From NCBI GenBank assembly GCA_032622095.1, contig CP136069.1:161747043-161811042 (forward strand): DNA of 64,000 bases, read 5' to 3'. The notes beneath the pieces are model-generated. The model was not told where the DNA came from, ran no database searches, and was given only the letters and a program-made list of their open reading frames with translations. The position numbers and the translations under genes are program-made. This DNA comes from Siphonodentalium dalli (Eukaryota; Mollusca; Scaphopoda; Gadilida; Siphonodentaliidae). The first letter of the stretch is position 1. Every line of letters starts with the position of its first letter. This document shows positions 1 through 49,038 of this stretch, one piece after another.

Positions 1-1895
1 TGAGTCCCGCCGGATGCTTCGTAGAAGGGTTGAATTTTCTGGAACGCTCAGCGGACGAAATGAGTTTATTTGGAGGCTCCATGGAGGAATGAGTTGATTC
101 AGATGCTCTGTAGAAGAATTGGATTCCTCGGAACGCTTCGTGGACGAAATGAGTTTATTCGGATGCTCCGTGGAAGAATGAGTTTATTCGGATGCTCCGT
201 GGGACAGGAAATAATGCAGAATATACATATGTACAACATGATGCTCCCTTGAGGATTCTACTCAGCTTAAATCTTCGGGTAGACGCCGACCGTCGTCATC
301 AGGACCCTGATCCTTCCAACTAGACTAGTGCCTTTGCTATTCGTTGTGATTTGCGAATTATGGTGGCATAGACGATACAGGGAATCAATACATCAGACCC
401 AAGAGTCTTCATCGAGATTCCTTTCCTGGGTTAGTCATGGTTCGGACGGATTGAGGCGGCAAAGACGATATAGAGAACCACTACATCAGACCAGGAAGTC
501 TTCATTTGGGGTTCATTTCTCGTATCGATCTTGGTTCGGACGGATTATGGTGACAAAGATGATATATAGAACCACTACATCAGACTAGGAAGTCTTCATT
601 TGGGGTTCATTTCTCATGTCAGTCTGGGTCGGGTGACCTCGTTACCCAAGATTGTTGTGGAGCTGTTTCCTCTCTCGAGTGCATTAAACAAAGAATATAT
701 GGAACGATGTGCTCGCTTCCAGGCCGGCATCTGGTTGGGCAAGGCTGTCAGACAAGGAGAATGAAGACTTCTTCTCAGCGAAAAGGACAAGCTCAATACC
801 AAGGAGGACCAGCAGAACGAGAAACTCGCATCTACAATAGTTCCTCGGGCCGGATCAGACAAACTCATAACATATTTACAAAATCTTAGCGACCCAGTAT
901 GACAAAACATAACTGATCGCTGACCGAGCAAGACCCATTCTTGCTATTATAACGAATTAGGTTAAATAGAGAATTCAATGTCCTATTACCTTATTGACCA
1001 TATTATATACAGAGAGTAGATTCCTTTTATTATTTTAGAACAGAACTGAATACCGAGCAAGAAGCACCTATTTGGCTGACATCTTGCTTATCATGAATTG
1101 TGTTATATTAGTATAGAATAAACCATGATGTTAAACCTGAATACAATGTCCTGTTTGGTTTCATTGGCGACGAAGCAAACACGGATCCCCGCGTTGTAGT
1201 GCCAAAAATAGCATAAAGACAGTGGTGTGGTTAAGAAAAGATGTCCAGTTGGCCTGGCCGAAATATGGATGTAGAAAGGACTCCCTGTATCTCCAAAGAC
1301 AGAGGAAACAGAACTGGACACTGAACAAGAAAGACGCACTCTTTCTGACACCATGGCTGACAGGTGGAAATTACCATTTATTATGCTTACTTATGAATTA
1401 ATGTGATTAATAACCTCTGTGTTAAATAGAATAGGGGCTCTGTTTAGTTTCAACTTGACAAACTTAATGTGCTATATAATACTTTATAATAAACCATGTT
1501 AACTTATGAATATAGAATCCCATTATTACTTCCTGACTAAATAAACAATACAGATACTCGTGATTGCTTCCATACACCCAACAATACTATCCAATTTGAT
1601 TCAGTCACCTCAGACTTGTTTAGGGAGCCTACGGGGAAATATATGGAAGAATACTCAAACATTTGACAAATTAATTGGTTTCCAACGTTATCTAAAACAG
1701 GAATCATGATGGGTCCGTCTAGTCCAAGAGGAGTTCCGGAGTATATACGGGAATTCTACTAAAGGGGAAGATGATAATTCTACCATGAAAAACAGGAATG
1801 ATGATTACTTCATTGGTCCGGCTAGTTGAAACGTTACAATATAATACACAAAGAAACGCCGATGTGGCGGTTGGTCCCGACTGAGGGAGAGAATA
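1..1895. repeat. 3' untranslated part of the element with several tandem repeats
   Basis: No gene is seen. Positions 50-215 hold about 30-bp units ending ggatgctccgtgg. Positions about 355-620 hold about 105-bp units with the shared phrase ccactacatcagac and aggaagtcttcatttggggt. Positions about 930-1,560 hold diverged copies of a longer unit (ccgagcaaga, then an AT-rich stretch, then caatgtcct). On the element's strand this is downstream of the third ORF. I cannot point to a polypurine tract or LTR edge. Confidence 0.5.
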
Positions 1896-4800
1896 TTAAA
1901 GGAAGTTCCCCGGAACAGGTGTTCCGTAAAACCGGCTAGTATTCAGAATCGTTGCTTGTAAGATGTCCTGAAGACTTTCGTTCCGGATGTCGGAGACGAC
2001 TCGCGCAACATTTCCAATATAGGCGGGGCTACTGATTTCGGCTCCCCAAGGTTGACCAAAGTAGGGAGAGTCTGTTTCCAACAAAAGACGGGAAGAAGGT
2101 ATGGCTTGCAACGCCCTTTTCTGAGACACGTTGAAAAATGTCACAGCAGCCGTAAAACCAAAGTAGCAATGGGGAAAAGAGTTGCTCCACTGTTGGAACT
2201 CCTCCACGCCAGCATTGAAGCAGTGAAGATGAATTAGTTGGTTAGGAGGACAGACGTCGGAGACAATCTTGTGTCCTCGGGCATAGACATCAGCAGGGAA
2301 ATTCGCAAGACCTCGTAAATGAAGAACTATGGGCTTCTGATATAGTACTGCAGACTTGACGATATCCCTCAAGACAGAATCTTGTTGCTCCCAGTAGCTA
2401 GGTGCCATAGTCCGGTCCAGTCCAATTTCGCCAATTGCGACCGTACCGGGATGTGCAAACAATTCATCGAGACGTTTATGGTAAGATGAATAAAGACCGG
2501 CTTTCTTTGGATGGAGACCAACGGCCGTCTTAAACGGGGTATCAACACGGATATCAACCGGGTAAGTGGAGGGATCACAGAAGATCATCACTCCACCTAT
2601 AAGGTTGACAGGAGTCGTCGGGAACGGCGAAGGTCGATATTGGAGCATGTCGTCTATGTCAAATTTCGGATAGCCTCTAAGACAATCATGCAAGCGATCT
2701 AAATGGAAGTGTGAATCTACAGCCATTCTAGCTAGCCCAAAATCCCGAGGTGGGGGAAGAATAGGAAGAGTGATTCGGCTGATCCTATTCTGCGGAACAC
2801 TGAGGGGAGGCCACTGGCCTGACGGGCTCCCAAGAATACTATCCGCGTTGGCAGAGTCGCTGACCTCCGGTGTAAGGGGAGGGTCACTTCCCAGAACCAG
2901 GGTCGTGTCCATTGACCCAGTGGGAGATTCCGAGAGAATCGGAACTGTCCGTACAGCATCCACAGTAAGTACACCTGGATCCAGAACTGTAGAAACAGCA
3001 TCTGGAGTGTAGATTGGTGGTTGCGGGACAGGTGGAACAGTCTTGTCAGAACCTGTTGAGTGGCTGATCTTAACCTCAGAAGGTGGGGGGAGCGTTGAAA
3101 TCGCAGGATCTGCAGTTGGAGGGGAACAGCTGACAATCCGGGGAGGTCCGCATTCTATCTGGAGTTTATGGGGCGGTGGAAAAGACTCGCCTGATATCTG
3201 GATGTGGAGATTCGGATAAACCGGTTTCTTCTTCGTGGATATGGGTACTCCATCGGACTTCTTTACACTGGTCAGGTTCAATTCAGCGGTCAGATTCTGC
3301 TGGTTCAGTCGAGCTTTCCCAGATCTGGTTACAAAATTGCAAAGGCGACCTGGGCAAAGATTACGAAAACTCTTCTGTCCCTCCAGGGGAATTTGGAGTA
3401 GTAAATTGCAAAGAGGTCTCCAGTGCAGAAGCACGGCCACAGAGTTTATGGGATGGAGAGAAAACTTGTCCACCACTGGCCAATCATACTGTGCGTGAAG
3501 AAAAGACTGAAATTCTGCCATCATGGTCAAACAATCGGGTGTGATGCTCGAAGACGGCATCCTTACGGAGCTGTTGTTACACTTTCCAATCAACTCCGCG
3601 AGACTACAGTTAAGACGTTTAGCAAGGAAGAGCAAAAGAAATTCCCAATCTTCCGGTTGGGGTTGATCTGCTGTCCTAAATTCCCAGACTGTTTGAGGGA
3701 GATGATGGACCATGCAATGCCGTTTCATCTTCTTAGACGGTTGACCGCACAGAGGACACTTGGTGTCGTTACGAGGTGGAACTTTCCTGCTAACCTGCTT
3801 CTCACCTGGCTCAACAAGAGAGGTCTCGAAAGAAGGAAGAGAATTGACTTCCTCAGTCAGTAACTCCATGGGAAGAATTACCCGAGAATCTGTAGATCTA
3901 ACAGAGGTATTGATCTCTGTCGTAGCTCCCCCAGTCAATGGCATGACGTTAAAACTGGAAACCTCAGAATCTCGGGATTCGAGACGGGGTAGGTTCCCCA
4001 GAACAGAAGAATATGATGATGGGCCCTCAGAATCTCGAGAATCGAGATTGGGCGAATTCCTCATAATAGAATTATTTAATGGTGCAACCTCAGAGCCTCG
4101 AGATTCGAGACGGGGAGGATTCTTCAGAATAGAAGAATATAACGGTGAAGCCTCAGAGCCTCGAGATTCGAGACGGGGAGGATTCCGCAAGATAAAAGGT
4201 GATGGATGGACCCCACTATCCTGGGAGTCAAGACGAGACGGGTCTATCCGGGAAGACTGAAACGGAGGAATCCCAATGTCTCGGGAGTCGAGACGAGACT
4301 GATTCTTCTGGGAAGAAGACTGAGATGAAGGAATCCCAATATCTCGGGAGTCGAGACGGGGCGGGTTCCTACGAAAAGACTGAGCTGAAGGAATCCCAAT
4401 ATCTCGGGAGTCGAGACTGGGCGGATTCCTACGAGAAGACTGAGCTGAAGGAATCCCAATATCTCGGGAGTCGAGACTGGGCGGATTCCTGCGAGAAGAC
4501 TGAGCTGAAGGAATCACAATATCTCGCGAGTCGAGACTGGGCGGATTCCTACGAGAAGGAGAAGACCTTGATCTCCGCAATGACATGTTACCCTGATGTG
4601 ATCGAAAGGGTGCGACCGAACGTTGACGTTCTCGAAGGGGTGGTTCATAAGGCTGTGCCCTCCCTGACCCCTGAGATCTCGGATATGGTGAGTGGCGCAT
4701 TGAAGATTTCCTTACTGGAGAATGGCGATAGGGAATGGTTGCCCTAGAGTCCCGCCGTCCATGGTTTCTGGAAATACGTGGTGAATGGCGTCTATCTGCA

Positions 4801-5516
4801 CGAGATGCACCCTGCGGTTGTCGAGATTCTCTATGAGAGGAATGACTTTGTCTTTGATGTGAGTGAGACCGGTTCCTTTCGGCTTCGGTGCGTGGTCGCA
4901 GTACGCGGTACGGTCGCATCGGTTGATCTAACGAGGAAGAAGACATCGACGCAGAAGGTATGGCAGGTCTCTGACCGGAAGGACTGGAAGAAGGAGGCTG
5001 CTCCTGGTTAAGCAGTACGGATGACTGTGAAGATGATGCTGCGGAAGGCGGTGGCTTTACTGAGGAAGACGTGGAAGAATATGAAGAATTTCTAACCTCG
5101 GTGTCGTTTCTTCGAGAGGAAGAGATTTCATAAAGGACGGTGGTGTGATCTCTGGTATCTATGGTTTCTGTTTCAGTAGGGCGTCTTGTAGCCGGGCGCT
5201 GGCGAGAAATTTTCTGTTTTCCGTCGAGACTTGGAAGCTTGTTATCTATCCAGGTATCATCCAAAAATAGTCTAGCATCTTGTCTACATCGCGTGATCCA
5301 TCGAGCGTTTTTCTGGTACACCGCGAGCCGATATTGCATCAGGGTCAGATCCTCAATCTGAGGGGCGTGCAGGTTATCATCAAACCCAATCTCATTGAAC
5401 AAGGTGGTGACATCCATCAACGAGTGGTTGCGACATGCCTTCTGGACCCTCTCCGTGATAGACAATTTTGGGCGCCAATCCCTTCTAGGGCTGATATTTT
5501 CCTTATCCACGTCCAT
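1896..5516 (-). CDS. Third ORF of the element: Ser/Arg-rich repeat protein with C2H2-like finger and C-terminal TatD nuclease domain, 1206 aa
   Basis: Residues 1-130 are a mixed, possibly folded start. Residues 130-320 are Ser/Arg/His-rich and probably disordered. Residues 321-520 are about ten copies of a 20-residue unit (type SRRNPPSLDSRDIGIPSAQS). A C2H2-like finger is at C587, C590, H600 and H604 or H605. Residues about 610-720 look folded but I do not recognise them. Residues 931-1206 are a TatD-family metal-dependent DNase: DSHFHLD with H936 and H938, GEIGLD with E1030, H1066, H1096/H1098, and the hallmark TDSPYF with D1149. All expected metal ligands are visible. Animal TATDN2 also has a long disordered N-terminus before TatD, so capture of such a host gene is one possible origin. 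The role is unknown: degradation or processing of nucleic acid in the element's cycle is inference. It lies 1.6 kb after pol, in the env position. Confidence 0.85.
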   Translation of the reverse strand: MDVDKENISPRRDWRPKLSITERVQKACRNHSLMDVTTLFNEIGFDDNLHAPQIEDLTLMQYRLAVYQKNARWITRCRQDARLFLDDTWIDNKLPSLDGKQKISRQRPATRRPTETETIDTRDHTTVLYEISSSRRNDTEVRNSSYSSTSSSVKPPPSAASSSQSSVLLNQEQPPSSSPSGQRPAIPSASMSSSSLDQPMRPYRVLRPRTEAERNRSHSHQRQSHSSHRESRQPQGASRADRRHSPRISRNHGRRDSRATIPYRHSPVRKSSMRHSPYPRSQGSGRAQPYEPPLRERQRSVAPFRSHQGNMSLRRSRSSPSRRNPPSLDSRDIVIPSAQSSRRNPPSLDSRDIGIPSAQSSRRNPPSLDSRDIGIPSAQSFRRNPPRLDSRDIGIPSSQSSSQKNQSRLDSRDIGIPPFQSSRIDPSRLDSQDSGVHPSPFILRNPPRLESRGSEASPLYSSILKNPPRLESRGSEVAPLNNSIMRNSPNLDSRDSEGPSSYSSVLGNLPRLESRDSEVSSFNVMPLTGGATTEINTSVRSTDSRVILPMELLTEEVNSLPSFETSLVEPGEKQVSRKVPPRNDTKCPLCGQPSKKMKRHCMVHHLPQTVWEFRTADQPQPEDWEFLLLFLAKRLNCSLAELIGKCNNSSVRMPSSSITPDCLTMMAEFQSFLHAQYDWPVVDKFSLHPINSVAVLLHWRPLCNLLLQIPLEGQKSFRNLCPGRLCNFVTRSGKARLNQQNLTAELNLTSVKKSDGVPISTKKKPVYPNLHIQISGESFPPPHKLQIECGPPRIVSCSPPTADPAISTLPPPSEVKISHSTGSDKTVPPVPQPPIYTPDAVSTVLDPGVLTVDAVRTVPILSESPTGSMDTTLVLGSDPPLTPEVSDSANADSILGSPSGQWPPLSVPQNRISRITLPILPPPRDFGLARMAVDSHFHLDRLHDCLRGYPKFDIDDMLQYRPSPFPTTPVNLIGGVMIFCDPSTYPVDIRVDTPFKTAVGLHPKKAGLYSSYHKRLDELFAHPGTVAIGEIGLDRTMAPSYWEQQDSVLRDIVKSAVLYQKPIVLHLRGLANFPADVYARGHKIVSDVCPPNQLIHLHCFNAGVEEFQQWSNSFPHCYFGFTAAVTFFNVSQKRALQAIPSSRLLLETDSPYFGQPWGAEISSPAYIGNVARVVSDIRNESLQDILQATILNTSRFYGTPVPGNFL
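3957..4556 (-). repeat. 60-bp coding minisatellite inside the third ORF
   Basis: About ten tandem copies of a 60-bp unit encode the 20-residue repeat at residues 321-520. The three N-terminal-most copies are almost identical, and identity falls toward the C-terminal side. This pattern fits recent expansion at one edge. Confidence 0.9.
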
Positions 5517-5544
5517 ATTTTAGGGAGGAAAAACTTTACAAAGA

Positions 5545-5570
5545 ACTAGGGAGATGGAGATCAAGGTAAT
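5545..5570 (-). promoter_or_regulatory. Predicted splice acceptor before the third ORF
   Basis: On the minus strand a pyrimidine-rich run ends in CTCCCTAG (AG at 5,547-5,546), leaving about 29 bases before the ATG of the third ORF at 5,516. Together with the donor at 14,910 it could yield a subgenomic mRNA that skips gag and pol. Confidence 0.5.
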
Positions 5571-6119
5571 CAAAACAATCTTGGAAATACAGTACCCATA
5601 AGAGATTGAATTACGACGGCAACATTTTTAACCGTGTAAACAGAAGAACAATACCAATAGCCTAACCGAAAAGACCTATTACGATGAGATATTAAAATTA
5701 CCTCCTTATGACAACTTAATATAGAATATTTCTTTACCAATTTTCAATAATTCATTACAATCTGCAAACTCATTATCCTCCAAAACTACAGATAGGGACA
5801 CACTCGACATACAACCAACATTAGAGCTTTCTGCCCAGATTTGGATACTGATGAACCACGGGAAAGTGTAACTCTGATCTGCGGTCAGCTTGAGTGTTGA
5901 GATGGACAACGCCTCAGCTATGAGTGACTATTCTGACACTGATACTGATCTTTTCTCGAGATGCTGATCCAGGTAACAATATGAATTTCAATAAGTTTTC
6001 ACCGGAAGGTGGACGATCTTCTTTAGAGACATGGTCCAGATTAAATGTCACTTTAAACAGTTTAAACAGAAATTTAGCTGATTTTCTTTCAAGACATCGA
6101 TGTATCCTACTTAACGGGA

Positions 6120-6580
6120 ACGGGAGGGTCTTCTTCGAAGATACTGATGCTGATGCAGATGTTGGATGTTGGATGATCTTCTTTGAAGATGCTGATGCAG
6201 ATTACTTAACACGATGTTGGGTGATCTTCTTTGAAGATACTGATGCTTGACGTTTTCAAGAAGATTGGTTTTCTTCGAAGATACTGACGCTTGAAGATTT
6301 CAAGAAGGTTGATTTTCTTCGAAGATACTGACGCTTGAAGATTTCAAGAAGGTTGATCTTCTTCGAAGATACTGACGCTTGAAGATTTCAAGAAGGTTGA
6401 TTTTCTTCGAAGATACTGACTGTTGAAGGTTTCAAGAAGGTTGATTTTCTTCGAAGATACTGACGCTTGAAGATTTCAAGAAGGTTGATCTTCTTCGAAG
6501 ATACTGACGCTTGAAGATTTCAAGAAGGTTGATTTTCTTCGAAGATACTGACTGTTGAAGGTTTCAAGAAGGTTGGGTCG
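6120..6580. repeat. 44-bp minisatellite between pol and third ORF
   Basis: About eight copies of a 44-bp unit (plus-strand core ttcttcgaagatactgacgc) lie in the 1.6-kb gap between pol and the third ORF. Copies alternate between two variants (cgcttgaagattt and tgttgaaggttt), which implies higher-order duplication. More diverged copies run left to about 6,120. No coding role is evident. Confidence 0.85.
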
Positions 6581-6740
6581 TTATGTTTTGAAGCCAACAT
6601 ATATTATGTGCTGTGAGCAGTTGAAAGACGTTTGACAACCGAAGACTTTGACAGCAGAAGATGGGAAGACGGAAGGCTTGTGGCCGCAGAAGATTTCAGA
6701 CTCGTGGCAGCGGAAGACTGGAAAACTGTAGACTTGCGAG

Positions 6741-6830
6741 GATGGACGACGCGTGGCTACGGAAGACTGGAAGACGGACAACTGGAAGACGGAAGACTGG
6801 AAGACGGAAGACTGGAAGATGGATGGAATC
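6741..6830. repeat. Short tandem repeat, about 15 bp (gactggaagacggaa)
   Basis: Several tandem copies of a GA-rich 14-15-bp unit lie within the pol to third-ORF gap. The rest of 5,571-7,143 holds no gene that I recognise. Confidence 0.7.
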
Positions 6831-7143
6831 CTCGTGTGTTCGAGCCTGAAAAGCAAAGGCATCTTTAAGGGCCCATTCCACCTCTATTCCTTGATACTGT
6901 ATATCAAATAAGATTGTAATTTTGACGTATTAATGATTGTTTGGCGTTACCGGTCCCCGGTTAATTTACGTATATCCCTTTAAATGATAGCAAACCTGAT
7001 CATCAGGCATTACCTGTTACATTTTCATCTAGCCTATCTTAACCAATAAACTCGTACGGATCTAATTTGGTTACAAGCTTTACCAGTCGGATAGGCATTC
7101 ACGGGGATAACATGTCCGGAGATTTAGTGAACCGCGCTCAACC

Positions 7144-10100
7144 CTACGTTTTTCCGCTTTGATTTAGGCAGTTCCGACAACTGTAAATATCCAGATGTCT
7201 CGCGTCTTCTTCGGAGATTCGCACGCAAGGCCCATGAAACCATTCTTCGCAGGTGTTACACTGAATCATAAATGTTCCTTTGTCCGGCTTTCTACAGAAA
7301 CAATATTCGGAGCGCGTCTTGGTTCCCAAAATGGGTAGTTCCTTGCGGATGGCTTTTATCCATGTCGGCATCTTACCTTTGTGTTTTCTTAGTCGGTCAG
7401 GCAGAAGACGACTAACGATGGTTTGGTCTTTTGCCTCGTACAGAAAAGGTGATAATTTCTGAGTGATAATCTTCGGCCCCTGCCAGTCCGGACTCACCTT
7501 TTTCCCTTTACCCTTTAGGACTGATGAATAACTATCCACAACCTCCCCCAAGCTGAACCCATTATCCACAAAGGTCTTCAGCCAAGGTGGGATTTCCCGG
7601 TTCCGGCATAGCTTCATCTTGTCGTGATTAGTGACGAATTGGGCCTTTTGCAACTTGACTTTATACAAGAAGGGTGTTATCTGGTCAACCACAATTCCCG
7701 GACCTTTCCATACCGGCTGAAGCTTCTTGGGTTTTCCCTTTATGACGGCTGTGTCCAAAATATACACTAATTCCCCAGGATGGTATACCTTCTGTAATAT
7801 TTTGGTGTCATAATCTCGCTTCATTTTCTTCTGCGTGGTTACCAGAGTTTTTCTTGCTATATCGTGAGCCTCACGCATATTCTTACTCAAGACCTTTAGA
7901 TACTCGTGGACTTCTTCTTCTCCCGGGCTGGGATCTCCGAACATCAATGCAGCTGGATGGTTCACTTCCCTCCCCAACATTAATTTGTTCGGCGTGAATC
8001 CTGTGGATCGATTCACAGATGAACGTAGTGCCCCAGCTATCTGAGAAACGTACTTGTCCCATTGATTTGGGCATTTCTCCACAAAGCATCTAACAGCTGC
8101 CATCAAGGTCTTGTTGTGATTCTCACATTGCCCATTCGCCGATGGTCTATAGGCTGTAGTTTTAGTCTTATGTATCTTCATCAGGTCACATAGTGCCGTA
8201 AACAATTTACTTTGGAAATTGGCACCCTGGTCAGTAAATATTTGGAACGGGTACCCGAACCTAGTAAAAAACTCGTTCACGGCTGCCTGGGCAGTCGTTT
8301 CCGCAGTCTGGTTAGGTAACGGTACGCATTCCACCCATTTAGTGAATTGATCGACCATCACCAGGATATGCTCATTGCCACGATCCGTGGCTGGGAGCGG
8401 TCCCAGAAAGTCTAGATGAACTCTCTCCATGGGGTAACCTGAATGAAACATAATCATGGGGTTCTTTGCTTTTCGGTTCAACTTCTTACTTGCATTGCAC
8501 TGTTGACACCCCGAAACATATTGGCGGACGCTTTCCGACATGTGGTACCACGTGAAATTCTGTTTAGCTCTTTCCAACGTTCTTTCCATCCCTTGGTGCC
8601 CTGATGCTGGTAAATCGTGGCACACTCTTATCGCTTCACCTTGTAAATTCCAAGGGAGAACTCTGACTGTCTGCTCTTGTCTGTTTATCATCCAGAGTAC
8701 TCCCTCTCTCATCTTCAAGCGATCTTTATTTATCCACAGATATTTCACCCAAGGACTGCATCTAAATAATTCTCCCTCTTCAGGATCCTTCTTCTGTTGT
8801 ACCCACTCTATAATTTTGTGTAAATCCACGTCCTCGCCTTGTGCTTCTTTCAGGTCGTCAGCCGTATACAGTTGAAGCGGGCATGCGTCTGCCACGACCT
8901 GACTCACCGTAATGATTTCCATATGGGGTATGTCAATGGAACCGATAAAATGGACTTTTCCTAAGTCGGTCGCACTTACCTTTATTAACCCGCATTCGGG
9001 GTTCCCTTGAACTTCCCCTATTGTCGCTTTCGCAACACCTACCCCAACTTGGTGGGAGATTTCCTCCCCATTTGTCACTTTCGCAACACAGGTCACGGTA
9101 GGGTGGGATCCTAGTTCCGAACCCCAGTCGGGAATTAAGGTAAGTTCCCTTATTTCCGTCCGGTGTTCTTTCATTCTTGACCCCCCTGGATCCCATGGCC
9201 ACAGCATGGGACACGTCACGTCCATAACTTGGTGCTCCAAGTTTATGGACTGTGCCCGGACCTGAGCCAAGGGGATCACGTCATCCACCGAATCAATGAA
9301 CGCTCCCCATTTCTCTTCTGCCTTTTGGCAGTATTTGCACCCACCACAGGGCAAATCTTCTAATATCACCCCTGCCTTGAAACAATGACAAGGATCTTCA
9401 TCCACTAGGCGTGATATTGCGTCTGCGTTTTGATGACGCGCTCCTGGGCGATGCTTAATTGTCATTTGGTATTGGCTCAGTTCTTCCAGCCATCGTGCAA
9501 TCTGGCCTTGGGGGTGCTTGAAGCGTAGGAGCCATGTCAGGCTGGCATGGTCAGTTCGCACCACAAAAGGTCGCCCCAGCAAATAGTGCCGGAACGTCCT
9601 GGCAAAAAATACCACGGCCAGTAATTCTTTACGAGTCGTGCAATAGTTCTTCTGCTCACGACTCAAAGATATGCTTCCATACGCAATGACTTTCTCCACC
9701 CCTTCCTGGACTTGGATTAGCTCTGCGCCTATCGCCCCGTCCGAGGCATCCGTATCCAGTATGAATGGGTCCTCTATTGTCGGTAGAGCAAGAACCGGGG
9801 GTGTCATAAGGGCTTCTCTTAAGGCAAGGAAAGCCTCTTCTTGCTCGTATCCCCATTCAAATTTTGGATTCTTCCCCGTGAGCTGGTGTAGGGGGGCGGC
9901 GAGCTTCGAGAAGTTCTTTACGAACATTCTGTGGTATCCTGCTAATCCCAAAAATCTTTCTACGTCCTTGCTATTTCGAGGGGTCGGCCACTCCTCGATG
10001 ACCTTGCAGGAGGCATCTGTCATCGTCATGCCCTGGCCGTCTATCGTTCGCCCCAAGAATTCTGTTTTTCTTTGAAACAAGCCACACTTTTTGGGTTTTA

Positions 10101-12054
10101 GGCGGAGTTGGTATTTCCGGAATCTTTCCAGGACCCTCTTAAGGTTGACGACGTGGCTAGAAAAATCCGACGCCATCACCAGAACGTCGTCTAAGAATGC
10201 CAATGCTATATTCCAGTTTAACCCCTGCAGCACAAGGCTCATGGCCCTGGAATAGCAACTTGGCGCGTTACAAAGACCGAAAGCGAGTTGGACGTGATGG
10301 AAGGTCCCGTATTTTGTCAGGAAAGCAGTCTTGTGGCGGTCTTCCTCTCGAATGGGAATCTGCCAATACGCAGAATTTCCATCCAGATGGCTAAAATACT
10401 GTTTCTGGCTTAACAAATCCACACATTCTGAGAACAGGGGAATGGGCCAGACATCTTTTTTAGTCACCGAGTTCAGACCGCGGTAGTCGAGGCACCAGCG
10501 AATACTGCCGTCCCGTTTCCGGATCAGTACTGGTGCAGCTGCCCATTCTGAAGTGCTGGGTTCAATCACGCCGGCCCTCAGCATTTTGTCCAACAGCTGT
10601 TTTTCTTCATTGACAAAAGCCACGGGGGTTCGGCGGAGGTTCATTTTAATGGGCAGAGCATCTCCGGTATCAATAGTGTGTTCCATTGCCGTGAAGTTCC
10701 CCAGATCATATTCGTCTATTGCGAAAACATCAGCGTACTCACTTATGAGTTGAGCCAGAGCGTCCTGCTGGCTTGCCTCTAAATTTTCCGCTGAACGATT
10801 GTACAAATCCATCAGATGTTCTGGGATTTTGTACGGTTCTGTTCCGACTCGCACTGCTGATACACTGGCGCCGCCGTCACAGCGCAATACTTCCACCTCA
10901 GATGCTGCGGCGATAACTTGCCCTCGCTTGAATTTAATATATCTCTCTGAAGTGTTGACGAGACAGATCACTGGGGTTTTCCCGGCACTGTGAACAGTTC
11001 TCGGAATGATGATACTAGGATGCTCCGTTCCTTCCAGGATGTATGGTTTGAGATTTTCGGCCATGACACCCTGGCACAAGCGCACCTGACCTGGAGGTAC
11101 CACAGTCGCCTTGGAAACTCGTACTTGGATTTGTCCATCATGGGCAGCATCCCCTAAGCGTTCCATCTTGATAGTGATTCCTCCCAATTCGATAATATCC
11201 CGGTCTAGGTTTATACGGGCAGAATGTTTCTTCATGAAATCCAACCCCAACAGCATATCATCGCCCACGGGAGCAACATATAAGGGGTGGCTGTATGTTT
11301 TTCCCCCTATTAGCAAGTTGGTCGGCTGGGTGATCCACGCATTCATGCATAAATTCCTGCCTGCCGTATGCATCTTCGCCTTTTTCTGGATGTCAGGTGG
11401 TTTCTCCAGCCTCTTGAAAGCCTTATCCGATATGATGGTTACTTCTGCACCACTATCAACAACGGCATTCAATCTGCTCCCATTGATTTCTACTGGGATG
11501 TACAGCATGGTTCCCCTAACTTGTTGGATCGTGAATTCATCGGGTAATTCTTCGTTGTTTAGCGTACCCGGAGATGGTTCGCTAGGCTGAGCGATTTCCA
11601 ATTCTGGGGAATCTACCAGATCCGTTTCATCGTGATCCTCTGGGTTCCCCATCTCGTTGATCTCAGCCTTTCTTTGACTAGGGGGTCCACTCATGCTGTT
11701 AGCTGGCATGATCCATTCTGTTTTCTCTTCCGATAGGATTTCGTCGTCACCCTTCCACGAGTTTTCTTCGACTTGCTCTACCCCTCTACCAGTCGTGGGT
11801 ATTTCGTCCCTTGCGTCACCTATCGGTTCCTTCCTAGGTTCTGGTCTACTCCACTTATTTCTTTCATTGGCTGATATCAAGATAGGCCCACTCATGTCCC
11901 TATCCTCCTGGTAAGCCGGCTGAGCATCGGATAACGATGCATCGTCCAGCTTCACCATTGGGCTAGGGCGGTTTGATGTACCTACCTCGTTCCCGGGCTT
12001 GCTCACAACTTCTTTGAACCCACTACCTGTTTGGTCAGAGTCAACATCGAACAT
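7144..12054 (-). CDS. pol: Pol polyprotein (protease, RT, RNase H, integrase, PHD finger), 1636 aa
   Basis: Replicates and integrates the element. The order is: acidic linker (1-170); aspartic protease with DSG at 200-202; reverse transcriptase with D558 and the FLDD box (D622, D623); RNase H with D769, E810, D835 and D878; a linker rich in Cys and Gly (about 890-1060); integrase zinc domain H1146, H1153, C1183, C1186; and integrase core D1215, D1275, E1311, with the usual 35-residue gap in the last pair. Two related C-terminal modules follow (about 1424-1468 and 1500-1545), then a C4HC3 PHD finger (C1585, C1587, C1599, C1602, H1607, C1610, C1626, C1629) closes the protein. The frame is open upstream of the listed Met through the gag stop and lies -1 to gag, so expression by frameshifting as in related elements is likely and the true N-terminus may differ. 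Confidence 0.95.
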   Translation of the reverse strand: MFDVDSDQTGSGFKEVVSKPGNEVGTSNRPSPMVKLDDASLSDAQPAYQEDRDMSGPILISANERNKWSRPEPRKEPIGDARDEIPTTGRGVEQVEENSWKGDDEILSEEKTEWIMPANSMSGPPSQRKAEINEMGNPEDHDETDLVDSPELEIAQPSEPSPGTLNNEELPDEFTIQQVRGTMLYIPVEINGSRLNAVVDSGAEVTIISDKAFKRLEKPPDIQKKAKMHTAGRNLCMNAWITQPTNLLIGGKTYSHPLYVAPVGDDMLLGLDFMKKHSARINLDRDIIELGGITIKMERLGDAAHDGQIQVRVSKATVVPPGQVRLCQGVMAENLKPYILEGTEHPSIIIPRTVHSAGKTPVICLVNTSERYIKFKRGQVIAAASEVEVLRCDGGASVSAVRVGTEPYKIPEHLMDLYNRSAENLEASQQDALAQLISEYADVFAIDEYDLGNFTAMEHTIDTGDALPIKMNLRRTPVAFVNEEKQLLDKMLRAGVIEPSTSEWAAAPVLIRKRDGSIRWCLDYRGLNSVTKKDVWPIPLFSECVDLLSQKQYFSHLDGNSAYWQIPIREEDRHKTAFLTKYGTFHHVQLAFGLCNAPSCYSRAMSLVLQGLNWNIALAFLDDVLVMASDFSSHVVNLKRVLERFRKYQLRLKPKKCGLFQRKTEFLGRTIDGQGMTMTDASCKVIEEWPTPRNSKDVERFLGLAGYHRMFVKNFSKLAAPLHQLTGKNPKFEWGYEQEEAFLALREALMTPPVLALPTIEDPFILDTDASDGAIGAELIQVQEGVEKVIAYGSISLSREQKNYCTTRKELLAVVFFARTFRHYLLGRPFVVRTDHASLTWLLRFKHPQGQIARWLEELSQYQMTIKHRPGARHQNADAISRLVDEDPCHCFKAGVILEDLPCGGCKYCQKAEEKWGAFIDSVDDVIPLAQVRAQSINLEHQVMDVTCPMLWPWDPGGSRMKEHRTEIRELTLIPDWGSELGSHPTVTCVAKVTNGEEISHQVGVGVAKATIGEVQGNPECGLIKVSATDLGKVHFIGSIDIPHMEIITVSQVVADACPLQLYTADDLKEAQGEDVDLHKIIEWVQQKKDPEEGELFRCSPWVKYLWINKDRLKMREGVLWMINRQEQTVRVLPWNLQGEAIRVCHDLPASGHQGMERTLERAKQNFTWYHMSESVRQYVSGCQQCNASKKLNRKAKNPMIMFHSGYPMERVHLDFLGPLPATDRGNEHILVMVDQFTKWVECVPLPNQTAETTAQAAVNEFFTRFGYPFQIFTDQGANFQSKLFTALCDLMKIHKTKTTAYRPSANGQCENHNKTLMAAVRCFVEKCPNQWDKYVSQIAGALRSSVNRSTGFTPNKLMLGREVNHPAALMFGDPSPGEEEVHEYLKVLSKNMREAHDIARKTLVTTQKKMKRDYDTKILQKVYHPGELVYILDTAVIKGKPKKLQPVWKGPGIVVDQITPFLYKVKLQKAQFVTNHDKMKLCRNREIPPWLKTFVDNGFSLGEVVDSYSSVLKGKGKKVSPDWQGPKIITQKLSPFLYEAKDQTIVSRLLPDRLRKHKGKMPTWIKAIRKELPILGTKTRSEYCFCRKPDKGTFMIQCNTCEEWFHGPCVRISEEDARHLDIYSCRNCLNQSGKT
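7165..7305 (-). other. PHD finger at the C-terminus of Pol
   Basis: Pol residues 1584-1630 form a complete C4HC3 PHD zinc finger. The CRKP, FMIQC and CEEWFHGPC stretches closely resemble PHD fingers of the PHF8/DIDO1/CXXC1 type, which read trimethylated H3K4. An aromatic Y1584, M1596 and W1605 occupy positions that line the methyl-lysine cage in that group. Its place after integrase is analogous to the chromodomain of chromoviruses. Confidence 0.85.
7420..7785 (-). other. Tandem duplicated integrase C-terminal (SH3-like) modules
   Basis: Pol residues 1424-1468 and 1500-1545 share the same pattern: a PGE/LGE start, a GKxKK stretch, a W-x-GP core and a PFLYxxK end. The first copy matches the usual GPY/F-like end of Gypsy integrases. 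The second is a diverged duplicate placed between it and the PHD finger. Confidence 0.65.
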
Positions 12055-12191
12055 CGATGCATTGAACTCTTCGTCCTCCAGGCTATAAGTTCTACAACTT
12101 GGTTGTGCCTTACCCTCTTTACTTATAATGGAGCTTCCACGTTCTGAAGGCTTGTTGTCTTTGCTTGGGCCTTCTTTGATTCGGGTCGTTT

Positions 12192-14897
12192 CTAGGCCTC
12201 GATGGACGACCCGCTCTCGTTTAACTCCTCGTTCTTATTGAATGATACTTTCTTCTGGAATTTGTCCTGTGGTTCATTCTGGGGACAGTTACGGCGAAAG
12301 TGGCCTGGTTTTTCACATTTGAAGCAAATCAATTCCCCATTTCGCCTAGGTGAAGGGCTTCTCGATCTGTCCCCATAGTTGGAATAATTCCGGTATCTTG
12401 ACTTCTCCTCTACTAGGCCCATCAGCTTCTTAATGTTCGCTGCCATCTCACCCATTCCTCCCTCTATTGAGCTCATTCTTGAGTTGACATCCGAGGATTG
12501 GTTTGTGGATGACCTGTTTTTGGCAGCGTCTCCATCTCTGGTAGTTCCACTCTTGCCCCATGGAGTGGAATCATTTGTCGGCTTCGTATTTTCTGTTGTT
12601 CGGGACCGGTTATATCGGGAATTTTGGTCATACCCCGAGTTCTTTGGACTTTCCGACCCCCAATGCCGGTCATACCCGGAGTTTTTCGGGCTCTCCGACC
12701 TCTGATTCCGGTCATACCTGGAATTGTTCGGGCTCTCCGACCTCTGATTCCGGTCATACCTGGAATTGTTCGGGCTCTCCGACCTCTGATTCCGGTCATA
12801 CCGGGAATTGTTGGAACCCTCAGATCTCTCTGACCTCCAATTCCGGTCGAACCTGGAATTGTTCCTTCTTCCATCCCCTCGTCCCCTATTGTCCCGATCC
12901 CTATACACTTGGCTGATCTGGGCCCCATCCGAATCTGAATCCGAATCTACCCATGTGGCCTTTACCTCTTTCTTCAGTCTCTTCCCATATATCGCCTGCG
13001 TGGTCTGCTGGAAGAGCTGCGCCTTTTCTACTGCCATTTTAATAGTTGGCTGGGCGGAAGTGGCAACATGTTGCCCTGTTTCCTTGTCCAGTAGTCCTTG
13101 GCAGAACTTTAATACGGCCTGTCTCTGCTGGACTGCCCCCGGCGCATCACTGAAGGCCTGTATTGACAGCTTCTGGACTCGGTCTGCCCAGTCCTCTAGA
13201 GGTTCATCTGTATTTTGCTTGGCCACTGCTAGATCTGTCTGGGCCTTCTCAGGACGATCATGTTCCTCATATCTGCTTCGGAGTTCTCTCAGAAGTTGTT
13301 GATATGACATTTCATCCTTTCGGTCGACCATCGCACAGAATTCGGCCGCCTTCTTCTCCAAACACCAGACCAGTTTCTCTTTCTTTTCTTCCTCCTCCCA
13401 GTTCTGGCGCTGGGAGAAATGGACGAATCTCTTTTCAAACACCAACCACATGGAGGTTCCATCGAACTTTAGTCGAGATGGTATTTTCTCAACCCCTATC
13501 CTGTCCCTTCTATCATATCTTCCCCGGTCATTACGTTCCTCTCTATAATGCTCCCGGTCCTCACCCCATCTCTTTGGTTCATCATTCTCCCTTCTTTCAT
13601 TTCGTTCCGGCTCCCTCTCCCGTCTCCCTAGATCGACCACTGCCTGTACCGCTGGTGTCACTGGTGGTATTGTGGCTGGTGGCATCTGTGTAGCTGGGGT
13701 CGCCACCTGGTTAGACGGGTATTGGTACTGTTGATTGCCTCCATGAATGAATGGTGGTTGTTGCCAGATGGGTGGAGGAAAATGGGTGGGGTGTCTTGGT
13801 TCAGGCACCACCCTAGCTTGTTCATAGCTTTGTTTATCCTTCCGGCGCCCATCTCTCTCGTCCCTCAACTTTTCTTCATAACTTTGAGCCTGAGCCCTCT
13901 TTTCTTCTTTCAAGTAAGTTCCTTCTTCTTTCAGGGACTCACATTCTTGTGTTTTCTCCTTGATTGCTTTCTTCAGGGACTCACTTTCTCTATTCAGGAA
14001 CTCATTTTCTCTTTTCAGGAACTCATTTTCTCTTTCCTCCTTATCCATTCGTATGTGTATTTCCTCCCACCCTTTTCCGGTTCTTTCTTTTTCCCTTTTA
14101 AGACCTTTATTTTCTTCTTCCACATTCCCCAAACTTCTTCTTACCAGTTGATTCTCACTGTTAGCTTGTTGAAGCTGGTCTTCTTTTTGGCGTATTTCTA
14201 GGTCAAAATCCCTCTGCATTCTCTCAAAATCTTTCTGCATACTAGCCATTTTCCCTTTCCACTTGTATCTCTCCTCTTCTACTCGGTCATACCTGTCCCC
14301 ATGCTGTTCTTCATACGATTTCCACCCTCTAGCCAATTCATTTCCTCGACTTTCCTGTTGGCCCCTTGGTTGGATATCGCCTTGCTCCTGGCTGATTGTC
14401 TCACGTCGCAGGTCTTTTTCTTCCTGTTCTCCATCTTCCCTTCGTGGATCTTTATACTCTTCGCATTCATGTTGCCTCTTTTCATTTTTTGTCATCTCTT
14501 TCTGTGTTTCTCTTTTTACAGAGGCCATATCTTCTGTTTCTTTTCTGTAATGGGCCACATGTTCTTCCCTTTCTTTTTCTTTTATACTTCTCGTACTGAT
14601 TGGAGAGCTGTAATATTTGGGTTCTTGCAAGTTCTCCTCAGAAATAGATAAATCTTGGTACTCCCTGCTGTCGCTCTGGGTTTCCAATTGTTCCTTGCTT
14701 ATTGTATAGCCAATTGGCCCCTTAATTCTGGCACATAGGTGGGGGGTGAGTACCTCTCTCAATTCATTGATATCTCTGATATCACCATGTCGTGCCCTAT
14801 GGAGTACTATCTTTGTTGCCGAATCATCGGAAATGCCTACTATTTTACACAACTCCTTGGTCGAGCAAAGATTTATTTCCACTCCGGTGGTTGTCAT
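12192..14897 (-). CDS. gag: Gag polyprotein of the Gypsy-type element, 901 aa
   Basis: This would be the structural protein of the element's particles. Residues about 5-58 fit the double helix-hairpin-helix pattern of ComEA-like DNA-binding proteins (INLCSTKELCKIVGI, then an A-x-x-I-V-x-x-R segment). Residues 100-350 are highly charged and should form coiled coil from about 205. Residues 365-420 are Pro-rich. Residues about 470-640 resemble the retrotransposon-gag capsid region (FEKRFVHF ... LEDWADRVQKL). Residues about 690-765 are six or so near-identical units of the NSRYDRNQRSESPN type. A CCHC zinc knuckle sits at C858, C861, H866 and C871. It is longer than usual for Gypsy Gag because of the coiled coil and repeats. 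The first ATG follows directly after a strong splice donor (14,906-14,914). Confidence 0.9.
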   Translation of the reverse strand: MTTTGVEINLCSTKELCKIVGISDDSATKIVLHRARHGDIRDINELREVLTPHLCARIKGPIGYTISKEQLETQSDSREYQDLSISEENLQEPKYYSSPISTRSIKEKEREEHVAHYRKETEDMASVKRETQKEMTKNEKRQHECEEYKDPRREDGEQEEKDLRRETISQEQGDIQPRGQQESRGNELARGWKSYEEQHGDRYDRVEEERYKWKGKMASMQKDFERMQRDFDLEIRQKEDQLQQANSENQLVRRSLGNVEEENKGLKREKERTGKGWEEIHIRMDKEERENEFLKRENEFLNRESESLKKAIKEKTQECESLKEEGTYLKEEKRAQAQSYEEKLRDERDGRRKDKQSYEQARVVPEPRHPTHFPPPIWQQPPFIHGGNQQYQYPSNQVATPATQMPPATIPPVTPAVQAVVDLGRREREPERNERRENDEPKRWGEDREHYREERNDRGRYDRRDRIGVEKIPSRLKFDGTSMWLVFEKRFVHFSQRQNWEEEEKKEKLVWCLEKKAAEFCAMVDRKDEMSYQQLLRELRSRYEEHDRPEKAQTDLAVAKQNTDEPLEDWADRVQKLSIQAFSDAPGAVQQRQAVLKFCQGLLDKETGQHVATSAQPTIKMAVEKAQLFQQTTQAIYGKRLKKEVKATWVDSDSDSDGAQISQVYRDRDNRGRGDGRRNNSRFDRNWRSERSEGSNNSRYDRNQRSESPNNSRYDRNQRSESPNNSRYDRNQRSESPKNSGYDRHWGSESPKNSGYDQNSRYNRSRTTENTKPTNDSTPWGKSGTTRDGDAAKNRSSTNQSSDVNSRMSSIEGGMGEMAANIKKLMGLVEEKSRYRNYSNYGDRSRSPSPRRNGELICFKCEKPGHFRRNCPQNEPQDKFQKKVSFNKNEELNESGSSIEA

Positions 14898-14905
14898 TAT
14901 GTATA

Positions 14906-14914
14906 CTCACCTGG
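14906..14914 (-). promoter_or_regulatory. Predicted splice donor just before the gag ATG
   Basis: On the minus strand the sequence reads CCAG then GTGAGT, a near-perfect donor, about 8 bases before the gag start codon. Retroviruses and errantivirus-like elements use such a donor to make the spliced mRNA for the downstream third gene. Use here is inferred. Confidence 0.5.
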
Positions 14915-14929
14915 TTGTGTTTTGGTAAA

Positions 14930-15091
14930 AATAAACGGATTTTCCGCCTTACCTTTAATAGTCGCCTTCGATAGTTTTGGTCTTATTAGCCTTTCTCAAC
15001 CTATCAAACGGATTGTCCGCGTTTATCTGACGGTCGAGACTAAATCACACTGGTATTACTTTAGCAAAATAAACGGAACGTCCGCTTTAAT
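14930..15091 (-). repeat. Three spaced copies of a small palindrome in the gag leader
   Basis: Three related sites, each with an A-rich flank and a core of the form cgga-nnn-tccg, lie about 70 bp apart (near 14,936, 15,009 and 15,077). They are just upstream of gag on the element's strand. They could be protein or packaging sites. Function unknown. Confidence 0.5.
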
Positions 15092-17330
15092 TATTGACTG
15101 CGAGTAACACCTGTGAAGGCTTCATTAATTGGAATACTGATGTTATGCTATTCCCTTTTAAATTAATACATTCCTCATCATATCTTATCTTATAAAAATT
15201 AATCTACGAGCAGCAAAAATAAATTAATACAAAAATCTTATTACCAAAACAATTATCACACATAAATTATAAGCTGCTCATTTACTCAGACAATTGAATA
15301 ATTTACTACACAAAAACAAATTAATCTATGAAGGTATATCACACAACAATTACAATACAAAATTTACGTGATATACATTAATCTGTTTAGAAACAGATTA
15401 ACTGATTCTGATTTAAGTGCGTTACACTTATGCTGCTCGGCTTCCTAAGTAACTAACTTATCGGAATAGCAGAGTAATTGAAAAAAAGTATTAAATTAAT
15501 CTGCATTAATCCAAAGGGAATAGATCAGGTTCATCAAGACCCGCGTCTCTTGCTCGGGAAGAATTGAAGAGAACGGCATGATTCGAGAAGTGGGTACCTT
15601 TTTTTTTGACATGTGCCAGTGGTTGCACATCAACACAAGTAGGGTTCAATGGGTAATACAATATAAATATAGGTTGCTGCAATCTGTTCAGTTCACAATG
15701 CTTTATATTATCAATTATTCTTTATCACAATCACAAAATTAATAACCAAATTATTTATCACAAGACAATTTCAAGAAATGTAAATCACAAAAAGTTCAAA
15801 CAATTTGATAGTAGTTATTTGTGTGAACTGGACAGCTACTAGTAATACATTACATACAACAACAATATTCAGCTGAAAATTATTAATTTAACTGGCACAG
15901 TTATATCGCGCACAAAAAAAACACAGATTACGCGTGTGTGGTCATGTCATCCATGAACACCGAATACAAAATGTGCCAGATAAGTCTACCAATTCAAATT
16001 AATTATAACCTAGTTTATAGACGAAAAAATGGATACCAGGTTTATTGCAAAAATTTAAATCCCTATTCCGCGCTGTCTAATTTACTAATTGACCTCTTCT
16101 ATGAAATTTAACAAGTTTATTGGAAGTTCTATTCCTGCGAAGCGCGATCGCCACAACAGAGATAGCATCCTCCTTATTTTATGTTAATTAATTATGTCAT
16201 GAAAATAAAAGTACTGTTTAGACTTATTTATTACATCAAGTAGCTGCTTTCGGACAGTTATTCCACCACGCAAAAAACAGCTCTCAATGAGTTATCGTAC
16301 TTATTGCAAAAATAAGTTTTATTATGAGTATTTCTGTATTTCGAATATTCGCACTATATCATAAGTGACAAAACATGTCACCCAGCATTTCCAACAACAA
16401 TTTATGTGATTTAGCAGCAAGGCTCCAGAGTGCAACACCCGTAGAATTTACCTTTTACATTACATTTAAATTACAAGCCAATTTGCTATGTTCAACGTTG
16501 CGAATATTCGAGATAACCAACGAAACATCATTTAGTGGGTGCTAATGTTATTCCGGTTTCTGCCGAGAGAATAACATAAAAAAAACAAATCGTTTATTGA
16601 ATCATAAGAGTACGAAATACATTGACAAGAAAATTAAACAGTGTTGTGCAAGTTCCAAAGTTGGCCTATTTCGATGAAATAAATAAAACATGGCAAAACA
16701 CTGCAGAAAGAATTTGAACAATGAATTGTGCGCTCATATGCACGACTCAAATTCAGGGAAACAGTGTAGAATTAATCGTCGGCATTGGGCCTATCTGAAA
16801 GAAAAAATGTCCATTAAATACGAGATTACCAAGTGCATTATTGTAAATGTAGGTTTTATAATAGAATGTTAGTTTACTTTATGGTTTATGTTGCTTTACG
16901 CGTGTTCTTGGAAAATTCCCATCATTTCCGGAAATTGCCGAAAATTCGGGCAAGAAGGCAAGATGGCGGCGCTTGGCGCGCCAAAATTTTCCAAGAGAAA
17001 AATTCAGAAATTCATTTATAATTTAATTACACTCTACTTTACATTTTATTTCACACACGTTAAATTCGAAACACCTCGTCGCCAATATAACATGATTAGG
17101 GTTTATAAGTGATGTTATCTAATGAAATTACCTATTATAGAAGTCTTGAGCGCGGAGCGATGTTGTCGGTTTGAAGGCTGTCGTTGAAGTGTCGTGAATT
17201 CCCGGATGACGTCACCTTCGGGAAGAGTCGGGTCACGTGAGTCGTTCCGAGTGGTGTAGATACATCTCCGTGGGTTTCCGGAGGATCTCGGTGAAACAAG
17301 AGGCCAAAACCGCTACACCTCAGACCGTTC
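15092..17330. other. Upstream region of the retroelement, no gene
   Basis: 2.2 kb, mostly very AT-rich, with no convincing frame. It probably contains the 5' LTR and leader of the minus-strand element. A small hairpin lies at about 16,547-16,576 (gttattc ... gaataac). From 17,130 to 17,330 the GC content rises and includes a CRE-like tgacgtca and an E-box cacgtg, so this may be the promoter part of the LTR. No primer-binding site could be assigned. Confidence 0.4.
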
Positions 17331-17744: not shown

Positions 17745-18177
17745 TGTGACCCGCCATATTAAAACCAGTCGTAATGCATTCTCTTATATATGCGAGTCGA
17801 CCATAGGTCGCCTCGCATATATAAGAGAATGCATTGGCCTAACAATTTTTACAATTTTAATATTTTTTTCTTGTATTCTTTAACAATTTTATAATTTTAC
17901 CCATACAGAGCCCCAGTCAAACATGAGCAGACGACACTCTTCTATGAGCTTCTATATATGTGTGGGGCTCCCTGCAGGGTAATGGATGTTTTTTTTATTT
18001 TATGTCCTAAAAATTGTAAGAAACATTTATTTAAAAAACATGATAAAAAATTGTTAGGCCAATGCATTCTCTTATATATGCGAGGCGACCTATGGTCGAA
18101 TCGCATATATAAGAGAATGCATTGGCACAGGGTAAAGAAAATCCCGACTTACGCTGGATTTGATATGGCGGGTCACA
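17745..18177. mobile_element. TA-flanked palindromic MITE, copy 1
   Basis: Terminal inverted repeats start tgtgacccgccatat and end in the complement. Inside each end sits a palindrome of about 65-70 bp (gcattctcttatatatgcga ... complement). The core between holds a hairpin with stem gagccccag / ctggggctc-like arms. No coding capacity, so it is non-autonomous. The family behaviour (TA at the edges) resembles Tc1/mariner-type MITEs. Confidence 0.75.
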
Positions 18178-18419
18178 CATGTTCACTATTACTTCACAGT
18201 ACAGACAATGGGACCTCAACAGAATATCCACGTTGAGACGGCTGGAAGTGAAATTTTGATAAAAATTCCACCAACATCGAGTGGCCCAATGGAAATCCGG
18301 CTGCTCGTGGAAACACCACTGCCGACAGAATCTGCACCAAAGTGGGTGTCTGCTGGCACTCAAACGGGTTAGTGTATAGACTCCACAATTAAAGGGGCTC
18401 AAATCCTTTATAATGGGTA

Positions 18420-44283: not shown

Positions 44284-44991
44284 TGCTGTCATGACGGGAG
44301 CTGCATTGACTGGTGCAGCATTAAAGCTCCTGTGCCAGTTCATTCTCGCATATATGTGACCCGCCATATCAAATCCAGTCGTAAGTCGGGATTTTTTTTA
44401 CCCTGTGCCAATGCATTCTCTTATATATGCGAGTCGACCTTAGGTCGCCTCGCATATATAAGAGAATGCATTGGCCTAACAATTTTTTATCATTTTTTTA
44501 AAATAAATGTTTCTTACAATTTTTAGGACATAAAATAAAAAACATCCATTACCCTGCAGGGAGCCCCACACATATTATAGAAGCATATAGAAGAGTTTCG
44601 TCTGCTCATGTTTGTCTGGGGCTCTGCATGGGTGAAATTATAAAATTGTTAAAGAATACAAGAAAAAAATATTAAAATTGTAAAAAATTGTTAGGCAAAT
44701 GCATTCTCTTATATATGCGAGGCGACCTATGGTCGACTCGCATATATAAGAGAATGCATTGGCACAGGGTAAAAATATCCCGACTTACGACTGGATTTGA
44801 TATGGCGGGTCACATATATGCGACGCTCACATAGGGAGCCTCGTATATATAAGAGAATGCAATGCTTACAAGGTCAAGGTAAATATTGTTAGATATGCAA
44901 GACTCCTTATTGGAGACTCGCATATATAAGAGAATGCATTGGCACATGGTTTTTGCAAAATTTCAGGAAGCTCCAGTCTTGGAAGGGTTAA
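44280..44991. mobile_element. TTAA-flanked element carrying a nested TA-type MITE
   Basis: Starts ttaatgctgtcatgacggga and ends ctccagtcttggaagggttaa. It holds the younger TA-flanked MITE at 44,355-44,814 and a further diverged palindromic module at about 44,815-44,942. The end lies 33 bp before the exon acceptor at 45,025. Confidence 0.75.
44355..44814. mobile_element. TA-flanked palindromic MITE, copy 2
   Basis: Same family as 17,745-18,177, with ends tgtgacccgccatatcaaat and complement flanked by TA on both sides. It sits inside a TTAA-flanked element (44,280-44,991), so it inserted later, in the first intron covered here of the ACOT9-like gene. Confidence 0.8.
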
Positions 44992-48429: not shown

Positions 48430-48580
48430 GTGAGTATTTTGCACGATAGTTTTCTCTTCAAAATATCACAGGTGAACATTGTTAGATCAGTGATAATATT
48501 CAGCTTTTGTCACTTTTTGAAGATAAAAATAGGCCAATAATTACATGAAATATTTTACAATCAAGAATGTGAGAGATATA

Positions 48581-49038
48581 TGTGACCCGCCATATCAAAT
48601 CTAGTCGTAAGTCGGGATTTTTTTACCCTGTGCCAATGCATTCTCTTATATATGCGAGTCGACCATAGGTCGCCTCGCATATATAAGAGAATGCATTGGC
48701 CTAACAATTTTTTACAATTTTAATAATTTTTTCTTGTATTCTTTAACAATTTTATAATTTCACCCATACAGAGCCCCAGACAAACATGAGCAGACGACAC
48801 TCTTCTATATGCTTCTATATATGTGTGGGGCTCCCTGCAGGGTAATGGATGTTTTTTATTTTATGTCCTAAAAATTGTAAGAAACAGTTATTTAAAAAAA
48901 ATGATAAAAAATTGTTAGGCCAATGCATTCTCTTATATATGCGAGGCGACCTATGGTCGACTCGCATATATAAGAGAATGCATTGGCACAGGGTAAAAAA
49001 ATCCCGACTTACGACTGGATTTGATATGGCGGGTCACA
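48581..49038. mobile_element. TA-flanked palindromic MITE, copy 3
   Basis: Same family, 458 bp, flanked by TA. It is almost identical in sequence to copy 2, including the central stem with gagcccc arms, so the two copies are young. Located in the intron after the 48,356-48,429 exon. Confidence 0.8.

Follow-up and report, generated by a model that had tools for sequence, protein, structure and literature searches.

A predicted TatD nuclease gene in third-gene position of a Ty3/Gypsy-type LTR retrotransposon of the scaphopod Siphonodentalium dalli

We analysed a window of 64,000 bp from the genome of Siphonodentalium dalli (C9:161747043-161811042), of which positions 1..17317 on the minus strand belong to a long terminal repeat (LTR) retrotransposon of Ty3/Gypsy type. 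Behind gag and pol, and on the same strand as both, the element carries a third open reading frame (ORF3, 1896..5516), which encodes a protein of 1206 amino acids (aa) ending in a TatD domain. The original prediction, that the third gene of a Gypsy-type element encodes a TatD nuclease here, is borne out by the LTR-bounded gag-pol-ORF3 arrangement in six of seven copies. We consider it nearly certain that ORF3 is a genuine gene of this recently mobile element.

Structure of the element and its copies

The element with ORF3 is 17,651 bp long (5' LTR, gag, pol, ORF3, 3' LTR), and its final 334 bases, including the 3' LTR, lie past the left edge of the window. The 5' LTR (17086..17317, minus strand; 232 bp, TGTA...TATA) matches the 3' LTR identically over 232 bp. 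Because the 3' LTR (G000:C9:161746709-161746940) sits about 0.1 kb outside the left edge, the window alone shows no LTR pair. Likewise, no purine run of 13 or more was found from pol to the window edge, since the polypurine tract is located outside the window. We considered, and then dropped, the possibility that an LTR separates pol from ORF3, as comparison of copies put both LTRs outside the three genes.

The primer binding site region, TTGGCGACGAGG..., adjoins the 5' LTR at 17064..17085 (minus strand). Gag (12192..14897, minus strand, 901 aa) has an N-terminal HHH_3 motif (helix-hairpin-helix, residues 4-49, 14751..14888, minus strand, Pfam 1.8e-08), a gag core and a CCHC knuckle according to Pfam; the same HHH_3 entry is also listed for one pol-containing homologue, P0082. 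Pol (7144..12054, minus strand, 1636 aa) lies in an open frame that extends to 12234 and differs from the frame of gag. Its domains are ordered as protease, reverse transcriptase, RNase H and integrase (Pfam positions 180-282, 511-671, 734-862 and 1136-1304), and it ends with a PHD finger (residues 1585-1629, 7168..7302, minus strand, Pfam 2.7e-08). In the gap between pol and ORF3, a repeat search of the window gave an array of 44-bp tandem repeats (6175..6614), whose period is no multiple of three.

We searched the host genome (2.23 Gb, 9 contigs) with ORF3 and obtained at least 53 matches. Nine full-length matches were listed, on seven contigs and with 95-100% identity, and eight of the nine had no internal stop. 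The flanks were compared for seven of them (copies a to g, with a being the window copy), and for copy h the downstream flank only, where an LTR follows ORF3. Gag and pol lie in sense upstream of ORF3, with LTRs around all three genes, in six of the seven copies (a, b, c, d, e and g), which is the order on one strand that had been predicted; pol is broken in c and d. The seventh, copy f (C8), is rearranged: most of pol stands upstream, and gag with the start of pol is inverted downstream of ORF3.

The LTRs, which were found by aligning the downstream stretch of each copy against its upstream stretch, are 222-232 bp long. The two LTRs of a copy show no mismatch in a, b, c and g, two in d and one in e, whose pair has an additional 12 gap columns at a damaged end. 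The primer binding stretch after the 5' LTR and the polypurine stretch AAAGTGAGGGGGAA before the 3' LTR are each identical in all six copies. Exact 4-bp target duplications were present in three of the six: a (GAGG), c (ACAC) and d (TAAC). The copies cease to be homologous at the LTR ends, short dispersed repeats excepted, and therefore ORF3 is inside the element.

Elsewhere in the window there are dispersed repeats of about 0.4 kb with internal inverted repeats (17773-18180, 44352-44819 and 48576-49041), which are 95.6-97.7% identical, and an inverted pair of about 830 bp with 93% identity (55908-56737 and 60804-61627).

The ORF3 protein and its selection

ORF3 is an uninterrupted reading frame on the minus strand, and its product is modular, with a helical N-terminal domain, disordered repeats, a C2H2 finger plus helical domain, and TatD. 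In the Pfam scan (E<=0.01) TatD_DNase was the sole match (E 1.2e-37, residues 997-1198, 130.1 bits against a cut-off of 27), and no DEDDy, GDSL or env family was found, which agrees with the original description of a 1206-residue frame ending in TatD. The nuclease domain covers residues ~934-1198 (1923..2717, minus strand), as judged by Pfam and alignments with E. coli YcfH, and includes the predicted metal-ligand residues. H936, H938, E1030, H1066, H1096, H1098 and D1149, which had been named as ligands with H1096 and H1098 as alternatives, are all present. Since the alignments pair the YcfH His with H1098, the His of HCF, this residue is likelier to be the ligand than H1096. We take it that metal is bound at the aligned TatD positions H936, H938, E1030, H1066, H1098 and D1149. 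Five of them (H936, H938, E1030, H1066 and D1149) were invariant in an alignment of 13 sequences.

TatD-family enzymes are nucleases. The best PDB matches of ORF3 were bacterial TatDs, and human TATDN1 was much lower. Bacterial TatD/YcfH has the domain and the ligand residues in common with ORF3, but is free-standing and about 260 aa long. The host TATDN2 of animals is a TatD-domain protein with a long disordered N-terminal part before TatD, and ORF3 is similar in this order of parts. Compared with TATDN2 as described, ORF3 has an extra C2H2 finger and helical domain, is bounded by LTRs and is multi-copy. A host TATDN2-like gene, which the original prediction named as the likely source, may have given rise to ORF3.

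The C2H2-like finger (C587-x2-C590-x9-H600-x4-H605) was also recognized correctly by the original prediction, and none of its four residues varies across an alignment of 34 rows. The finger and the adjoining helical 'PxNSxAxLLHW' domain (residues ~575-715, 3372..3794, minus strand) were modelled together and confidently by AlphaFold2 with mean pLDDT of 89.6 (34 sequences), and the N-terminal helical domain (residues ~20-100, 5217..5459, minus strand) with 85.9 (22 sequences). Foldseek gave no clear PDB match for either model, which is not proof of a new fold, and the finger-plus-helical model had no clear match in the viral structure library BFVD. VIA-align returned no row for the middle domain and only middling helical rows for the N-terminal domain.

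The long Arg/Ser-rich repeat region that had been reported includes ten tandem 'LDSRD' units of about 20 residues each in the disordered region, starting from residue 328 (residues ~328-532, 3921..4535, minus strand, by repeat analysis). The units (LDSRDIGIPS...) are similar to a lone 'SRDIRL' stretch of some relatives, and have perhaps been amplified here.

Pooled pairwise ratios of replacement to silent substitution rates (dN/dS) over eight copies of ORF3 were 0.087 in the TatD domain, 0 in the N-terminal domain, 0.36 in the finger and helical part, 0.54 in the linker and 0.76 in the disordered part. For gag and pol, the ratios among the four copies whose frames are open were 0.50 and 0.22. 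Because pooled pairs are not independent, the distinct changes in the seven intact copies were also counted, with binomial probabilities from a simple neutral model that has no transition bias. TatD had 5 replacement and 16 silent changes (P 4e-7), and the N-terminal domain 0 and 6 (P 9e-5). The disordered part, with 33 replacement and 16 silent changes (P 0.2), serves as an internal control within the same gene. Purifying selection is thereby shown for the N-terminal domain and for TatD. The ligand motifs are retained across the copies, one of which (L093) has one additional residue after HLHC.

Related elements and the ORF3 family in other animals

Five of the listed ORF3 places in the genome have main segments with at most 70% identity, and the upstream DNA was compared for three. 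The TatD frame might have stood there in other surroundings; instead, pol lies in sense upstream at all three, its best segment being 61-65% identical to that of the window. The TatD regions at these places are 53-63% identical to that of the window, so the divergence of pol is about as large as that of TatD. The association of pol with ORF3 is old. One divergent place, of which both ends were checked, has a 202-bp LTR pair with 99.0% identity enclosing gag, pol and ORF3. The copy of the second TatD family at C6:17.33M is seemingly nested inside another LTR element, with a 1137-bp direct repeat that is 99.9% identical and a TGGCGCC-like sequence after one repeat.

An initial protein search with ORF3 revealed 12 relatives, and a profile search with the part from C2H2 to TatD gave 867 relatives at E<=0.001 among 7996 candidates scored; 120 of the relatives were listed. 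Named members include the bivalves Saccostrea, Mytilus, Pinctada, Mya, Dreissena, Ruditapes, Mercenaria, Pecten and Tegillarca, the gastropods Elysia, Plakobranchus and Haliotis, and also sea urchins, a sea star and hemichordates. Some clusters at 90% identity are large (125, 52 and 47 members), and clusters of dozens of members are as expected for a repeated gene. Simple patterns were counted in 126 listed proteins: HxH in 111, GExGLD in 109 and ETDxP in 114. In 68 listed homologues HxH begins after residue 250; 47 of these have PxNSxAxLLHW, which in 46 is preceded by a C2H2-like pattern. The full motif set is present in bivalve and sea urchin members. The hemichordate protein P0174 (Ptychodera) aligns across the whole query with the motif pattern missed, and the hemichordate P0233 matches the TatD part only.

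Proteins named 'TatD family hydrolase' in metagenome-assembled genomes (MAGs) of Sedimenticola/Thiodiazotropha belong to the ORF3 family (P0004, P0144, P0152, P0169, P0191, P0196, P0198 and P0209), and are probably contamination from the animal host. A scan of genome contigs gave at least 549 relatives; 80 of them were taken, all labelled bacterial. On viral contigs, the TatD and pol queries found no relative apart from seven TatD loci, which match the C-terminal TatD part with 28-34% identity. In the TatD tree, 122 ORF3-family sequences were set apart from 22 bacterial and viral-contig ones (support 0.999), the latter drawn randomly from 86 such sequences; this tree is silent on capture of a host gene.

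The PHD pattern was present in 102 of 120 listed pol homologues (best 120 of 1600). Such PHD-bearing pols are common in molluscan and environmental data, and the finger is a possible chromatin-targeting module. When the contigs of these 120 pols were compared with those of 125 TatD proteins from the listed matches, two pairs were of exactly equal size (8390 and 9881 bases), with 0.25 expected over all pairs (P ~0.026) and about 0.065 within the same source (P ~0.002). This hint at pol-TatD adjacency in other species is only suggestive.

Expression, proposed function and alternative explanations

A putative splice donor, CAG|GTGAGT, lies at 14905..14913 (minus strand), with its junction 13 nt upstream of the gag ATG, and is found by the gag ATG in the window copy and in copies b, c, e and g; in copies d and f the pattern applied in this check did not locate the gag start. 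The element contains three donor-like sites, and its mononucleotide shuffles have 0.3 on average. A putative splice acceptor, a pyrimidine tract ending in CTCCCTAG, is located at 5546..5575 (minus strand), 29 nt upstream of the ORF3 ATG, and an acceptor-like tract was close to this ATG in all eight copies compared. A spliced mRNA would join the donor just before gag to the acceptor just before ORF3. Judging from these sites, ORF3 is probably translated from a spliced mRNA in the manner of env. In the env-bearing Gypsy elements and errantiviruses, too, pol is followed by a third gene that a splice-acceptor-like site precedes, and ORF3 differs from env in that its product is a predicted nuclease.

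The best explanation overall, which we regard as probable, is that ORF3 is a selected nuclease gene that is expressed like env and serves the element. As purifying selection acts on the N-terminal domain and on TatD, the enzyme most likely works and helps the element to spread. The constraint on the enzyme part, together with the kept ligands, points to a predicted active nuclease.

Several observations weigh against this explanation. Exact target duplications were not found in copies b, e and g. A gag match (40%) occurs at just one of the three divergent places, and one of the three divergent pols has no PHD pattern, which is present in the other two; the second family has no consensus donor near gag. 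Within ORF3, no significant constraint was detected in the middle domain (2 replacement and 3 silent changes, P 0.07) or in the linker (15 and 10, P 0.09), and the nine repeat units tested appear unconstrained (pN/pS 0.94 against 0.83 and 0.82 in the wrong frames). Finally, third codon positions are pyrimidine-rich in ORF3 and purine-rich in gag and pol (third-position T is 0.35 against 0.19 and 0.21), and the codon preferences of ORF3 correlate negatively with those of both genes. As a test of shared history, codon usage thus gave the opposite of the expected outcome, and a separate history of ORF3 may be one reading of the contrast.

This codon and third-base contrast would suit a decaying host TATDN2-like gene that adjoins the gag-pol element or was carried off with it, as would the similar domain type. 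We regard this decaying-neighbour reading as practically excluded, because the LTRs lie outside ORF3, near-identical LTR-bounded copies are dispersed in the genome, dN/dS in TatD is far below 1, and pol is upstream at every divergent place compared. It is also very unlikely that the TatD domain is a structural nucleic-acid binder in which catalysis no longer matters. HxH, GExGLD and ETDxP are indeed missing in 15, 17 and 12 of the 126 listed proteins, some of which are fragments, but five ligand positions are invariant in the 13 aligned homologues, and the copies have retained the motifs.

If the enzyme is active, its substrate has to be considered. We tentatively propose, at somewhat less than even confidence and by analogy, that ORF3 is tethered to the element's own nucleoprotein and that TatD processes hybrids or cDNA ends for integration. 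The finger, helical and N-terminal domains would hold the enzyme on the nucleoprotein, RNA:DNA hybrids or cDNA termini would be freed of RNA or 3' ends by TatD, and this trimming would make the element DNA ready for integration. TATDN2 is described as resolving R-loops by RNA degradation (PMC12754012), and by this role RNA:DNA hybrids or cDNA ends of the element itself would be the most likely substrates. It is possible, though we doubt it, that ORF3 instead attacks nucleic acid of foreign or host origin, or intermediates of defence, such as competing cDNA, small-RNA precursors or ligands of host sensors. The nuclease nature of the TatD family would allow this, and purifying selection is compatible with any role in trans or in cis. 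For the DEDDy ORF3 of bdelloid rotifers, PMC5408684 discusses the processing of RNA 3' ends and a part in silencing. Against such targets, the N-terminal and middle domains, which are conserved, may serve for tethering. An action after integration or at target sites, in which the PHD finger directs integration to promoter chromatin that carries marks and TatD resolves the R-loops there, seems quite unlikely to us. The finger at the end of pol, its frequency among the listed pol homologues and the R-loop role described for TATDN2 (PMC12754012) agree with it, but the divergent pol without the PHD pattern does not.

The tethered-nuclease proposal can be extended to a Gypsy-type lineage of molluscs, echinoderms and hemichordates in which a spliced and selected TatD replaces env, processes RNA:DNA hybrids or R-loops and is coupled to a PHD-finger integrase. 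We think it unlikely that this extension holds in full. If true, a TatD acting on RNA:DNA hybrids or R-loops together with a PHD integrase would represent a replication module new to retroelements, and many invertebrate and symbiont proteins called 'TATDN2' or 'TatD family hydrolase' would be the gene of this element.

Enzymatic third genes have precedents. The Vesta/Juno LTR retrotransposons of bdelloid rotifers carry a non-env ORF3 that encodes a DEDDy exonuclease or GDSL enzyme, so in some families it is a nuclease as here; it is of DEDDy and not of TatD type, and the word 'TatD' is absent from the main text of the paper that describes them (PMC5408684). Within genomes, the Vesta/Juno ORF3 is reported there to show no significant departure from neutrality, whereas TatD is constrained in our element. 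Orchid Ty3/Gypsy elements have acquired an m6A RNA demethylase domain (PMC9289625), which is likewise an enzymatic domain gained by Gypsy, of another enzyme and in another kingdom. No TatD ORF3 was found in the literature searched, which was partial and had Repbase-type collections outside its scope, and none is reported in the available parts of PMC6962438, PMC3286476, PMC5408684, PMC7998251, PMC12754012 and PMC11574390. Given the Vesta/Juno precedents, an enzymatic ORF3, even a nuclease, is already known, and what is new, as far as the searched literature goes, is the TatD type under purifying selection.

For annotation, the finding is a warning that genes called 'TATDN2-like' in invertebrates, and TatD 'hydrolases' of symbiont MAGs, may belong to transposons. 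A selected nuclease as third gene suggests that certain LTR retrotransposons require, or benefit from, a gene beyond gag and pol. It is now a testable question which step of the retroelement cycle uses TatD, a family that includes the R-loop-linked TATDN2 of animals.

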